Shown: positions 8,219 to 25,199 of the stretch, piece by piece
How positions within the stretch are numbered: position 1 is the stretch's first letter
Layout: each line of letters begins with the position of its first letter
From: a virus
Reading direction: 5' to 3' (one strand)
IMG/VR virus record: IMGVR_UViG_3300028287_000020
Span: 1 to 30,204 of that record
DNA: 30,204 bases
Notes under the pieces: model-generated
What the model was told of the DNA's origin: nothing
Database searches by the model: none
What the model saw: the letters and a program-made list of their open reading frames with translations, nothing else
Translations under genes and position numbers: made by a program

Positions 8219-8224
8219 ATAAGA

Positions 8225-8252
8225 AAGGAGGGCAATGCCCTCCTTCTTTTTT
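8225..8252 (+). terminator. Strong intrinsic terminator, likely bidirectional, before the capsid gene
   Basis: A perfect 9-bp stem (AAGGAGGGC at 8225-8233 and GCCCTCCTT at 8237-8245, loop AAT) is followed by CTTTTTT. It starts seven bases after the stop at 8218. Read from the other strand the stem is followed by TCTTATTT, so it may also stop the convergent antisense gene, whose TAA overlaps the T-run at 8251-8253. Confidence 0.85.
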
Positions 8253-8475
8253 ATTCACCATATGCAGGTGGTATGTGTTTGCCATCGTGGGTTATTAAGT
8301 CTTCACCCTCCCAATGCGTGGAGTAATAGAAGTTTTGTCCATTAGAGTACATCTCAAAATGCTCCAAATAATCTTCTACGGTGTAAATGTCACTTGAATC
8401 AGTAACGAAGCCAGAGGCGCAATAAGGGTTGCTATCCATCTGCTTTAAGTGTTCAAGGTTGTCAATCAATTGCAT
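8251..8475 (-). CDS. Antisense small acidic protein (moron-like), function unknown
   Basis: This is the only minus-strand gene I accept. A GTG at 8508 gives 85 aa, but that codon overlaps the promoter -7 element at 8498-8505, so transcription would start inside it. I therefore choose the ATG at 8475, giving 74 aa beginning MQLIDNLEHLKQ. The protein has 14 Asp/Glu, only two Lys, no Arg and five His, so a net charge near -12. It holds aromatic clusters (YLEHFEMY, NFYYSTHWEGE) and ends HIPPAYGE. There is no membrane segment or signal peptide. It has its own promoter and converges on a terminator, the arrangement of a moron gene. The charge recalls small DNA-mimic anti-defence proteins, which is only an inference. 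I do not recognise the family. Confidence 0.6.
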   Translation of the reverse strand: MQLIDNLEHLKQMDSNPYCASGFVTDSSDIYTVEDYLEHFEMYSNGQNFYYSTHWEGEDLITHDGKHIPPAYGE

Positions 8476-8497
8476 AGTAATTTCGTTTTGGTTTCTC

Positions 8498-8527
8498 CAA
8501 ACATACACAAAAATCTAACACACACAA
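8498..8527 (-). promoter_or_regulatory. Bacteroidetes-type promoter for the antisense gene
   Basis: On the minus strand TTG (8527-8525) is followed after 19 bases by TATGTTTG (8505-8498), an exact match to the Bacteroidetes TTG-N19-TAnnTTTG consensus. The -7 box is preceded by TTTGTG, as in two other candidate promoters here (at 19065 and 25192). The predicted transcript starts near 8490, about 15 bases before the ATG at 8475. Confidence 0.65.
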
Positions 8528-8537
8528 CATTACATAG

Positions 8538-8555
8538 TTAACTTATAAAAGTTAA
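8538..8555. promoter_or_regulatory. Inverted repeat, candidate operator between antisense gene and capsid gene
   Basis: TTAACTT-ATAA-AAGTTAA is a perfect 7-bp inverted repeat, followed directly by a third half-site (AACTTAA at 8558-8564). It lies in the 70-base divergent region between the antisense promoter and the capsid ATG at 8579. It has no T-run and a weak stem, so a protein-binding site is more likely than a terminator. No TAnnTTTG box is visible for the capsid gene here. Confidence 0.4.
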
Positions 8556-8578
8556 TCAACTTAAAAAAGAAAATAAAG

Positions 8579-18490: not shown

Positions 18491-18856
18491 ATGAATCCAC
18501 TAATAACAAAACTACTCGGAAAAAGCGCACAGGAGACGATAGAAGCCGTTTCTAATGTCGTAGATAGGTATGTATCAACTCCAGAGGAGAAAGCCGCTCT
18601 AAAGGCTTCTATTGAGTCCGAGATTAGTAGTAGGTGGAAATCCGATATGACATCGGACTCTTGGTTAAGCAAGAATGTAAGACCACTAACCTTGATTGTA
18701 GTGATTAGTTTTCTGGTAGTTACTACTTTCTTTGATGGGTTGGGCTACCTACAGGTAGACCCTGCTTGGATAAGTCTATGGAATATGTTAAGTGTTACAG
18801 TTGTAGGAGGTTACTTCGCAGTAAGATCACTTGACAAGAGAGGTAATGTTAAATAA
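18491..18856 (+). CDS. Holin of the 3TM (GTA-holin) type
   Basis: A 121-aa protein. An N-terminal soluble helix region (residues 1-55, with EEKAALKASIESEISSRWKS) is followed by a conserved SWLSKNVRPLTLI, a membrane segment (VVISFLVVTTFFD), a short loop with a second hydrophobic piece, and a last membrane segment ending VGGYFAVRSLDKR. The W-x-x-x-x-RP start of the membrane region and the GGY.A.RS.(D/E)K end match the holin family first described from gene-transfer agents (PF11351-like). It would permeabilise the inner membrane and release the endolysin encoded at 17214. It is the last gene before the hairpins at 18885, closing the late region. Confidence 0.75.
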   Translation: MNPLITKLLGKSAQETIEAVSNVVDRYVSTPEEKAALKASIESEISSRWKSDMTSDSWLSKNVRPLTLIVVISFLVVTTFFDGLGYLQVDPAWISLWNMLSVTVVGGYFAVRSLDKRGNVK

Positions 18857-18884: not shown

Positions 18885-18911
18885 GGTGGGTTATCCCACC
18901 TTTCTTTTTTT
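18885..18911 (+). terminator. Intrinsic terminator ending the late operon
   Basis: GGTGGG (18885-18890) and CCCACC (18895-18900) form a stem with loop TTAT, followed by TTTCTTTTTTT. It lies 28 bases after the holin stop and is the first of three hairpins in this junction. Confidence 0.8.
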
Positions 18912-18921
18912 ATATATATAT

Positions 18922-19014
18922 TATATATAGAGATATTATATATAGTAATATATAGAGACCTATAGGTCTCTTATTATATATATATAGAGATATAGATATA
19001 TTTATATATAGAGG
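18922..19014 (+). repeat. Four 12-bp direct repeats in an AT-rich junction (candidate origin or regulatory iterons)
   Basis: Four near-identical 12-mers are spaced 25, 32 and 24 bases apart: TATATATAGAGA at 18922-18933, AATATATAGAGA at 18947-18958, TATATATAGAGA at 18979-18990 and TATATATAGAGG at 19003-19014. The block between 18904 and 19010 is almost entirely A/T outside the GAGA cores and one palindrome. This is the only long non-coding stretch in the window (235 bases between the holin and the next start). Iterons in an easily melted region are typical of replication origins; binding sites for an early regulator are the alternative. Confidence 0.5.
18954..18971. repeat. Perfect 18-bp palindrome inside the AT-rich junction
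   Basis: AGAGACC-TATA-GGTCTCT is a perfect inverted repeat. Its left arm is part of the second 12-bp repeat. It is followed by TTATTATATA and not by a clean T-run, so it could be a weak terminator, a cruciform or a dimeric protein-binding site. Confidence 0.5.
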
Positions 19015-19033
19015 CATTCGCCTCTTTTTTTTT
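19011..19033 (+). terminator. Second intrinsic terminator of the junction
   Basis: GAGGC (19011-19015) and GCCTC (19020-19024), loop ATTC, are followed by an unbroken run of T to 19033. Its 5' arm uses the end of the fourth 12-bp repeat. It would stop any late transcript that passed the hairpin at 18885 and insulates the early promoter just downstream. Confidence 0.75.
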
Positions 19034-19043
19034 GCTCTCTATG

Positions 19044-19072
19044 TTGGTTGTAAATAAATTTGTGTACATTCG
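19044..19072 (+). promoter_or_regulatory. Candidate early promoter, Bacteroidetes type
   Basis: TTG (19044-19046), 18 bases, then TACATTCG (19065-19072), a TAnnTTnG box preceded by TTTGTG. Positions 19047-19072 match 20 of 26 bases of the promoter region at 25174-25199. A second overlapping option is TTTG (19031) with 20 bases to TAAATTTG (19055-19062), an exact -7 box. Either would serve the gene at 19092. Confidence 0.6.
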
Positions 19073-19091: not shown

Positions 19092-19271
19092 ATGGATATA
19101 AAAGACCAATACTTGAGCTTGTGCGAGGCACGAGTTGAAGCTCTCACCAAAGAGATGAACCACCTAAAAATGTTTATCATTAGAGACTATGCTCGTAAGA
19201 GTATAGATGCAGAAACCGTTATGGATATGTTTAAAGCATACAAGATCAATGAAGACCGTAGTAAAAATTAA
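19092..19271 (+). CDS. First gene of the early operon, 59-aa helical protein
   Basis: The frame is open from 19032, but upstream codons lie inside the promoter, so I start at the ATG at 19092, about 20 bases after the -7 box. The 59-aa product starts MDIKDQYLSLCEARVEALTK and continues as one or two amphipathic helices with basic patches (RDYARKSIDAE). It has no recognisable domain. As the first gene after the late terminators and an early promoter it is expected to be expressed immediately on infection, a position that often holds host-takeover or anti-defence genes, but nothing in the protein shows such a role. Confidence 0.6.
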   Translation: MDIKDQYLSLCEARVEALTKEMNHLKMFIIRDYARKSIDAETVMDMFKAYKINEDRSKN

Positions 19272-19976: not shown

Positions 19977-21121
19977 AAGAGATTAACCAATTAGACTTAT
20001 TCTCTGGTATTGGAGGATTCCATTTGGGATTTGAGAGAGCAGGGTTTAAGGTCAATAGTTACTTCTCGGAAGTAGATAAACACGCAGTAGCGGTATACCA
20101 ACACCAATTTAAAGATAGCACCTATGTCGGATCAGTTACAGATGTTCGGGGAGCAGACCTCCCAAGAATTGACCTCATCACTTTTGGAAGTCCTTGCCAA
20201 GACTTTAGCCAAGCTGGAAGTCGCAAGGGTCTCACAGGAGACCGAAGCAGTCTTATCGCTCAAGCAATACGGCTTATCGGAGAATGTAGACCAAGAGTTT
20301 TTATTTGGGAAAATGTTAAAGGAGCATTCTCCTCAAACGATGGGGCAGACTTTGCGGCAATCCTCCAAGCCTTTGTTGACATTGGGGGCTATAGACTTGA
20401 ATGGCAACTGCTTAATACATCGTGGTTTCTACCCCAAAATAGAGAGCGGATATACCTTGTCGGACATCTTGCAGAAACCAGAGGAGATTGGGGCGGAGTT
20501 TTTCCTATCACAAAAAATGATAGAGTACCTACAGAACTCAACTCATATGAAGAAGAGCAACACGGAAAAGAGGAGCTTTCAAGTGTATCCGCAAGAACAA
20601 TAAGTAGTGCAACCGCAAAGATGGCTCGTGACCAAACTTACATAAAAGTAAAGTCAGCCACTTCTACAGGCTATGACATAGCAACTGAAGGAGATGCTAT
20701 TAACCTTACTGCTATTAACTCTACGACAAGAAGAGGGAGAGTGGGTAAGCAACAAGCCCAAACGCTTGATACATTATGTGAACAAGCGGTAGTCACTCCC
20801 AAGATCATAGGATATTCAAGAGATGCTAAAGGGAAGGTTGTAGACCGACACCTAAAAGACGAGGCAGGAACAATACATACAGGAAGTGGTGGAGGTGGTA
20901 ACACCGACCAATTTGTACAAGACTACCGCATCCGTAGACTAACTCCTATAGAGTGTGAGAGGCTACAGGGATTTCCAGATAACCACACCTCCAAAGGTAT
21001 TTACGATGGAGAGGTCAAGGAGATGAGCAACACTCAACGCTACAAGCAATGTGGCAATGCAGTAACTGTAGATGTAGTACAAGCGATAGCAGAAAAACTA
21101 CATCCAATGTTTGAGCAGTAA
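19973..21121 (+). CDS. DNA (cytosine-5) methyltransferase
   Basis: A 382-aa SAM-dependent enzyme. Motif I DLFSGIGGFHLGFERAG is at 8-24, motif IV GSPCQDFSQAG at 72-82 with catalytic Cys75, motif VI ENV at 113-115, motif VIII QNRERIYLVG at 155-164, motif IX RRLTPIECERLQGFPD at 321-336, and motif X around GNAV at 361-364. The region from about 170 to 315 is the target-recognition domain. It is complete and probably active. No cognate restriction enzyme is recognisable next to it, so a solitary phage enzyme protecting DNA from host restriction is likely. It starts four bases inside the resolvase end. Weak hairpin and promoter follow its stop. Confidence 0.9.
   Translation: MKEINQLDLFSGIGGFHLGFERAGFKVNSYFSEVDKHAVAVYQHQFKDSTYVGSVTDVRGADLPRIDLITFGSPCQDFSQAGSRKGLTGDRSSLIAQAIRLIGECRPRVFIWENVKGAFSSNDGADFAAILQAFVDIGGYRLEWQLLNTSWFLPQNRERIYLVGHLAETRGDWGGVFPITKNDRVPTELNSYEEEQHGKEELSSVSARTISSATAKMARDQTYIKVKSATSTGYDIATEGDAINLTAINSTTRRGRVGKQQAQTLDTLCEQAVVTPKIIGYSRDAKGKVVDRHLKDEAGTIHTGSGGGGNTDQFVQDYRIRRLTPIECERLQGFPDNHTSKGIYDGEVKEMSNTQRYKQCGNAVTVDVVQAIAEKLHPMFEQ
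20124..20603 (+). other. Long nested open frame inside the methyltransferase gene, possible overprinted gene
   Basis: A 159-codon ATG-started frame in the +1 register lies wholly within the conserved half of the methyltransferase. Its translation is not low-complexity (MSDQLQMFGEQTSQ, GYTLSDILQ, EFFLSQKMIEYLQ). However, the methyltransferase motifs force much of this sequence, and long shadow frames are frequent in this window. I list it as a candidate only. Confidence 0.2.
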
Positions 21122-22627: not shown

Positions 22628-22966
22628 ATGGATGAATTAAAGCAAGAAGATTACGGATGGGTAAGAGGGGGTAGTAAGAGTATAGCCCTCTTATGGTTAA
22701 GACAAAAGAATCAAGACCTAATGCAGATTGCTAATGCTCTTAAACCTCAAGACACAAGCAATGAGTATGAGATGGATATATTCATTGACCTCATTAGTAT
22801 CTACTCTGCTATAGATGCCTCCATAGGTATGGTAGAGGATGTTCAGCAGATGGTATGGGAGGCAGAAGCAAAGAACGCTGACCTCAAGCTAACGATACGA
22901 AACCTAACAAGAAAGATAAACGCTTACGAAGAACGATTTGATAACCTTAACGAACATCTAAAATGA
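22628..22966 (+). CDS. Helical protein between helicase and DnaA-like gene
   Basis: A 112-aa, largely helical and acidic protein that starts one base after the helicase stop. The N-terminus (MDELKQEDYGWVRGGSKSIA) is followed by a helix bundle and a terminal coiled coil (EAEAKNADLKLTIRNLTRKI). I recognise no family. It is sandwiched between the helicase and a DnaA-domain-IV-like protein and overlaps the latter by ATGA (22963-22966), so a role as a replication accessory or loader adaptor is conceivable but not supported by motifs. Confidence 0.55.
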   Translation: MDELKQEDYGWVRGGSKSIALLWLRQKNQDLMQIANALKPQDTSNEYEMDIFIDLISIYSAIDASIGMVEDVQQMVWEAEAKNADLKLTIRNLTRKINAYEERFDNLNEHLK

Positions 22967-23403
22967 GAGCAACGATATTACAATTACAAGAGGAGTACGA
23001 TAACTATACAGGAAACCATAGAATCTCACCCTCCAGAGAGCGTAGGAATGTTATGGCAAGGTTTGCCTTTATGGTAGCCGCAAGAGACTTGTACACAACA
23101 CTTGAGATCGCACGAGTATGTAAGAAGAATCACGCTACTATCATACACGCAACAAAGGGACACGAGATGAACATAAAGTTTGATAGGGACTATATGCAGT
23201 TCTTCAACCAATGTTGTGCGATTATGGACAAGCTACGAGGCTCACAGGAGGAAGGAATGGATTGGGGACTGACCAAGCAGAATGCCTTACTAACCGAGCG
23301 TTTACAAAAAACTCGTGAGGAACTGTCAATAACTCGTGAAAAGTTGTATATTATGGAGCAAGAAATCAAGCAATTACGAAAAGAATATGAACTTTGCGAT
23401 TGA
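22963..23403 (+). CDS. DnaA domain IV-like DNA-binding protein with a coiled coil
   Basis: A 146-aa protein. Residues 25-70 (RRNVMARFAFMVAARDLY, then LEIARVCKKNHATIIHATKG) match the helix-turn-helix of bacterial DnaA domain IV, with KNHATIIHA in place of the DnaA signature around DHTTVLHA. That domain recognises DnaA boxes. There is no ATPase domain. Residues 105-143 form a coiled coil (RLQKTREELSITREKLYIM) likely for dimerisation. It could be a phage origin-binding protein acting with the DnaB-like helicase two genes upstream, or a competitor of host DnaA. The repeats at 18922 are candidate targets, an inference only. Confidence 0.7.
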   Translation: MRATILQLQEEYDNYTGNHRISPSRERRNVMARFAFMVAARDLYTTLEIARVCKKNHATIIHATKGHEMNIKFDRDYMQFFNQCCAIMDKLRGSQEEGMDWGLTKQNALLTERLQKTREELSITREKLYIMEQEIKQLRKEYELCD

Positions 23404-25173: not shown

Positions 25174-25199
25174 GTTGTTAACTTATTTGTGTATATTAG
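25174..25199 (+). promoter_or_regulatory. Candidate promoter for the second early block
   Basis: The 26 bases from GTTG to TATATTAG match the region at 19047-19072 at 20 positions and share TTTGTG-TAnnTTnG. The -7 box TATATTAG (25192-25199) differs from the consensus at one position; the TTG at 25175 is closer (14 bases) than usual. The start ATG of the next gene is at 25217. Confidence 0.5.

Follow-up and report, generated by a model that had tools for sequence, protein, structure and literature searches.

Origins of the iteron type, as in the lambda ori and in iteron plasmids, carry short direct repeats in AT-rich DNA. The iterons of plasmids are generally helically phased, and a disturbance of the phase can inactivate the origin (review, PMC5043065). 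In tandem Rho-independent terminators, which end the late or lysis operons of phages, GC-rich stems are capped by 4-nt loops and run into U-tracts; they are placed directly after the holin gene and ahead of the next promoter. The sigma-A promoter of Bacteroidota has the consensus TTTG / TAnnTTTG (PMC6847099, PMC9723704).

A virus record of 30,204 bp from IMG/VR (the window) was analyzed here. The junction between its lysis and early genes shares features with each of these systems, and a first-pass annotation had proposed that it is an iteron-like origin of replication. Based on its sequence and that of its relatives, the stretch is probably transcription punctuation (probability of about 0.78), in which tandem intrinsic terminators would close the lysis operon, a Bacteroidota-type early promoter would follow, and the repeats would be slippage filler.

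Organization of the lysis/early junction

Endolysin and holin genes are located upstream of the junction, on the late side, while genes for a methyltransferase, a DnaB-like helicase, an exonuclease and terminase are located downstream, on the early side. This gene content agrees with the late/early boundary and the phage-encoded DnaB-like helicase of the first-pass annotation. The junction is also the AT maximum of the window, as had been described: residues 18904-19033 are 81.5% A/T, and no 130-bp stretch is more AT-rich. Its description as the longest non-coding stretch (235 bp) depends on the minus-strand ORF at 8251-8508 being a gene, since the stretch 8219-8578 would otherwise exceed it. 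This lone minus-strand ORF (85 aa) has TTG-N18-TATGTTTG upstream and a weak PHROG match (E=0.02).

A search of IMG/VR with the holin protein provided 80 related loci. Their junctions, from the stop codon of the holin gene up to the early genes, sort into interchangeable cassettes of types A-F. Type A is as in the window, type B has other AU-rich hairpins, type C has a long structured RNA, type D has a long perfect hairpin, and E and F are further types.

Table 1. Positions of the junction features and related elements in the window
Feature	Position	Strand	Remarks
Holin gene	18491..18856	+	Last of the lysis/late operon; PHROG holin E=4e-17
Terminator T1	18885..18911	+	GGTGGGTTATCCCACC stem-loop and U-rich tract; stem kept in type A relatives
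AT-rich tract	18911..19009	not assigned	Contains TATATAGAG repeats; slippage-prone arms and spacers
TATATAGAG repeats	18922-18933, 18947-18958, 18979-18990, 19003-19014
18-bp palindrome	18954..18971		AGAGACCTATAGGTCTCT; GC tip of the middle hairpin; compensatory change in relatives
Terminator T2	19010..19033	+	AGAGGCATTCGCCTCT stem-loop and U9; loop variants in relatives
Bacteroidota-type promoter	19031..19062	+	TTTG-N20-TAAATTTG; consensus from PMC6847099
Conserved 22-bp promoter/operator (putative)	19049..19070	+	TGTWAANWWTTTTGTKTAYATT, 1 mismatch
First early ORF	19092..19271	+
DnaA-domain-IV-like protein	22963..23403	+	Long C-terminal helix; candidate regulator
Second copy of the 22-bp element	25176..25197	+	Ahead of the next operon

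The repeat array

The four 12-bp direct repeats are found at exactly the positions that had been claimed for them, with the pattern [TA]ATATATAGAG[AG] matched at 18922, 18947, 18979 and 19003. In 300 dinucleotide-preserving shuffles, the exact pattern never occurred in more than one copy, and a 12-mer of any sequence with at least four copies (at most one mismatch) occurred in 4 of the 300 (~1%). The repeat family is above chance, yet it is attainable by low-complexity sequence. The copy at 18947 extends into the 5' arm of the palindrome hairpin, and the copy at 19003 into that of the second terminator.

The spacing of the repeats, which is 25/32/24 in the window, is not kept among type A relatives, where it is 41/32/24, 31/32/24 or 25/50, or a single spacing of 44-106. 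The number of copies is 1-4 in type A and 0-2 in type B, and there are none in types C to F. Helical phasing of the repeats was observed neither in the window nor in type A relatives. Between nearest type A pairs, 30 of 40 indels have an even length, which points to TA slippage, as slippage would give even lengths. The repeats are probably the AU-rich arms of the hairpins and the spacers between their tips, lengthened and shortened by TA slippage and swapped between phages as an entire cassette.

Putative terminators and hairpins

The perfect 18-bp palindrome and the two terminators of the first-pass annotation are both present. T1 and T2 come straight after the holin gene and before the promoter, each with a GC-rich stem, a 4-nt loop and a U-tract, as in intrinsic terminators, whereas no U-tract is found after the palindrome. 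The GC tips of all three hairpins are kept in type A while the loops change, and the stems of T1 and T2 follow the pattern of conserved stem and variable loop seen with intrinsic terminators. The compensatory change in the middle hairpin is from AGAGACC...GGTCTCT to ATAGACC...GGTCTAT. The tandem hairpins, two of them with U-tracts, would end transcription of the lysis/late operon. In comparison to the tandem Rho-independent terminators of other phages, the stems here are flanked by AU-rich slippage arms, and the whole cassette is exchanged between close relatives.

The AU arms were also considered as a co-varying stem, in RNA or as a cruciform. An initial permutation p value of 0.0014 came from mixing two subtypes, and the signal is gone inside each of them. 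Swaps of hairpin arms within one subtype do not weaken the folding (p=0.97, n=17; p=1.0, n=7), and pairing of the AU arms is therefore not under constraint.

The junction region folds better than shuffled sequences, with a z score of -5.7, and the terminators alone may not account for such excess folding. In several cassette types, the junction has a long, GC-tipped AU hairpin. This recurrence may reflect selection for something beyond termination.

The probable early promoter and the 22-bp element

The promoter match overlaps the second terminator, with its -33 TTTG being the end of the U-tract of T2. Both boxes of the Bacteroidota sigma-A promoter (TTTG and TAHHTTTG) are found here with a suitable spacing of N20, and there is no G in the two free positions. 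Full matches to TTTG-N(17-23)-TAnnTTTG are found only twice in 30 kb, at 19031 ahead of the early genes and at 21110 ahead of the replication genes. This host-type promoter, located directly after T2, would start the early operon.

There are differences from the sigma-A promoter, however. The match is located within a longer 22-bp element, the flanks of which are better conserved than the TA of the -7 box. Among relatives, the TTTG of this box is kept, but the TA is missing in many (TTATTTTG, CAATTTTG), and the longer element is kept instead. Given the poorly kept TA, this may be a separate, phage-specific promoter class, or a promoter that overlaps an operator.

The 22-bp element is common to junctions of types A, B and C, despite their differing upstream cassettes. 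At up to 3 mismatches, exactly two copies are found in the window (19049 and 25176), compared to 0.06 expected, and the type A-C relatives with loci spanning both places have the element at both. This putative promoter/operator overlaps the predicted early promoter, which is probably regulated.

The DnaA-domain-IV-like protein

The fold assigned to the 22963 protein by the first-pass annotation is borne out by its predicted structure (pLDDT 90.5). The best Foldseek matches are 3pvp and 1j1v (probability 0.97-0.99, E 0.1-0.2), and the top matches are DnaA domain IV on DnaA-box DNA. The sequence matches Pfam Bac_DnaA_C with an E value of 5.5e-6, its 26.8 bits being below the gathering cut-off of 31.5. 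In contrast to DnaA, the protein stands alone, with no AAA+ domain and a long C-terminal helix in its place, an architecture that would fit a regulator better than a full initiator.

Proteins of this type are found in relatives of types A to F. They mostly have the signature NHAT, with DHAT in several type D phages, and its His57 is invariant in 25 sequences. The signature resembles the DHTT of DnaA. Over 61 loci, DnaA boxes cluster in the region of the gene with 2.2-fold enrichment. This is evident mainly among the closest relatives and is partly imposed by conservation of the protein, so that it is only a lead.

Structured RNA in type C junctions

Type C junctions, which occupy this site in relatives of the window, have a conserved non-coding stretch of ~500 nt. 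It is located at 6416-6938 in L004, and it is also found in L007, L024, L029, L031, L050, L070, L073, L144 and L147. The RNA has 15 consensus pairs with kept two-sided changes. A loop-loop (kissing-loop) contact remains 97% paired across nine sequences in spite of changes in both of its sides, with the variants CCTCAAC/GTTGAGG, CGTGACT/AGTCACG, CTTCC/GGAAG and CCGTGA/TCACGG. The motif TAHHTTTG precedes the RNA in 10 of 10 type C junctions. No Rfam family matches the window or nine relatives at gathering scores, and the weak sub-threshold matches of the window junction and L004 are read as chance. A phi29-like packaging RNA, considered for its loop-loop pairing, was dropped as close relatives with the same genes do not have the RNA. 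This structured RNA is the part of the relatives worth following.

In type B junctions (for example L006, L017 and L061), three subtypes that differ in their spacers have TTG-N20-GAACTTTG ahead of the hairpins, a possible internal promoter of a short RNA.

We propose only tentatively that alternative cassettes of structured RNA, with related jobs, are exchanged for one another at the lysis/early junction. The array in the window would be one of these, and type C would be an undescribed class of phage ncRNA of ~500 nt with a covarying kissing-loop (pseudoknot) contact.

Alternative readings of the junction

In an iteron origin, the TATATAGAG repeats would be bound by an initiator of the phage, namely the 22963 protein, with melting of the AT-rich DNA. 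The four repeats are indeed inside the most AT-rich stretch of the window, and the phage encodes both a DnaB-like helicase and the DnaA-domain-IV-like protein. However, neither the copy number, the spacing nor the presence of the repeats is conserved among the 80 relatives, while the repeat unit and copy number of iteron origins are conserved with the replicon. The repeats are absent from type C relatives with near-identical replication genes. One of these, L004, is 97% identical to the window in the holin, 97% in the helicase, 94% in the 22628 protein and 87% in the 22963 protein. On the other hand, L022 (type A) has kept the repeats with a 22963 protein that is only 57% identical. The repeats and this candidate binding protein therefore segregate independently, unlike iterons that are inherited together with a cognate initiator. 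The repeats are also out of helical phase, which sets them apart from plasmid iterons generally (PMC5043065). The GC skew is positive throughout the window, with no turning point at the junction. The first-pass annotation had allowed that simple TATA slippage would explain the repeats if the repeat units were not conserved, and this is what the relatives show. An iteron origin is thus very unlikely, and the tempting origin call invited by AT-rich repeats beside replication genes is removed. Attention shifts to the conserved parts, the putative 22-bp promoter/operator with its two copies in the window and the candidate regulator with the DnaA domain IV fold.

In an origin of another design, host DnaA or the 22963 protein would bind pairs of DnaA-box-like sites at the early promoter, and the adjacent AT-rich DNA would melt. 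Most type D junctions (for example L078, L032 and L065) have DnaA-box-like 9-mers in tandem, with a spacing of 12 bp, immediately ahead of the promoter; the sites in L078 are TTATCCACA-GAC-TTATACACA. A pair with this spacing and a total of at most 2 mismatches is found nowhere else in 85 kb. On the minus strand, the 22-bp element of the window contains a weaker pair at this spacing (3 mismatches in all), the only such pair in the window. Together, the type D pairs and this weaker pair make the 22963 protein or host DnaA a candidate binder of the early promoter, for transcription or replication. However, the exact TTATNCACA box is not found anywhere in the window, and the pairs are missing from types E and F and partial in B and C. 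Moreover, this 22-bp element has a further, promoter-like copy at 25176, and a role in transcription is equally explanatory. We consider such an origin unlikely. It is likewise improbable, if slightly more so, that the tract is transcribed as a multi-hairpin regulatory RNA, one among a set of RNA cassettes that substitute for each other here. The excess folding of the junction, the GC-tipped long AU hairpins of other types and the covarying RNA of type C in the same position are consistent with such an RNA, but T1 is located before the tract, the T1-T2 interval has no promoter match in type A, the AU arms do not covary inside subtypes, and the Rfam search at gathering scores was negative. Transcription punctuation is the preferred reading of the junction.

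The host

The source is an uncultured marine phage, probably of Bacteroidota, based on the type of the promoter and on distant relatives of the helicase, most of them in phages of Maribacter, Cellulophaga and Tenacibaculum. No close isolate phages were found by megablast of a phage collection. A scan of host genomes gave no match with the helicase, and with TerL only matches of 33-35% in MAGs of Verrucomicrobiota and Aminicenantes.

Residues 23545-24081 of the window encode a 178-aa protein with weak helix-turn-helix/sigma matches (Pfam UPF0122, E=0.005; PHROG 8794 sigma factor, E=0.05), which could be a sigma-like regulator of the phage.
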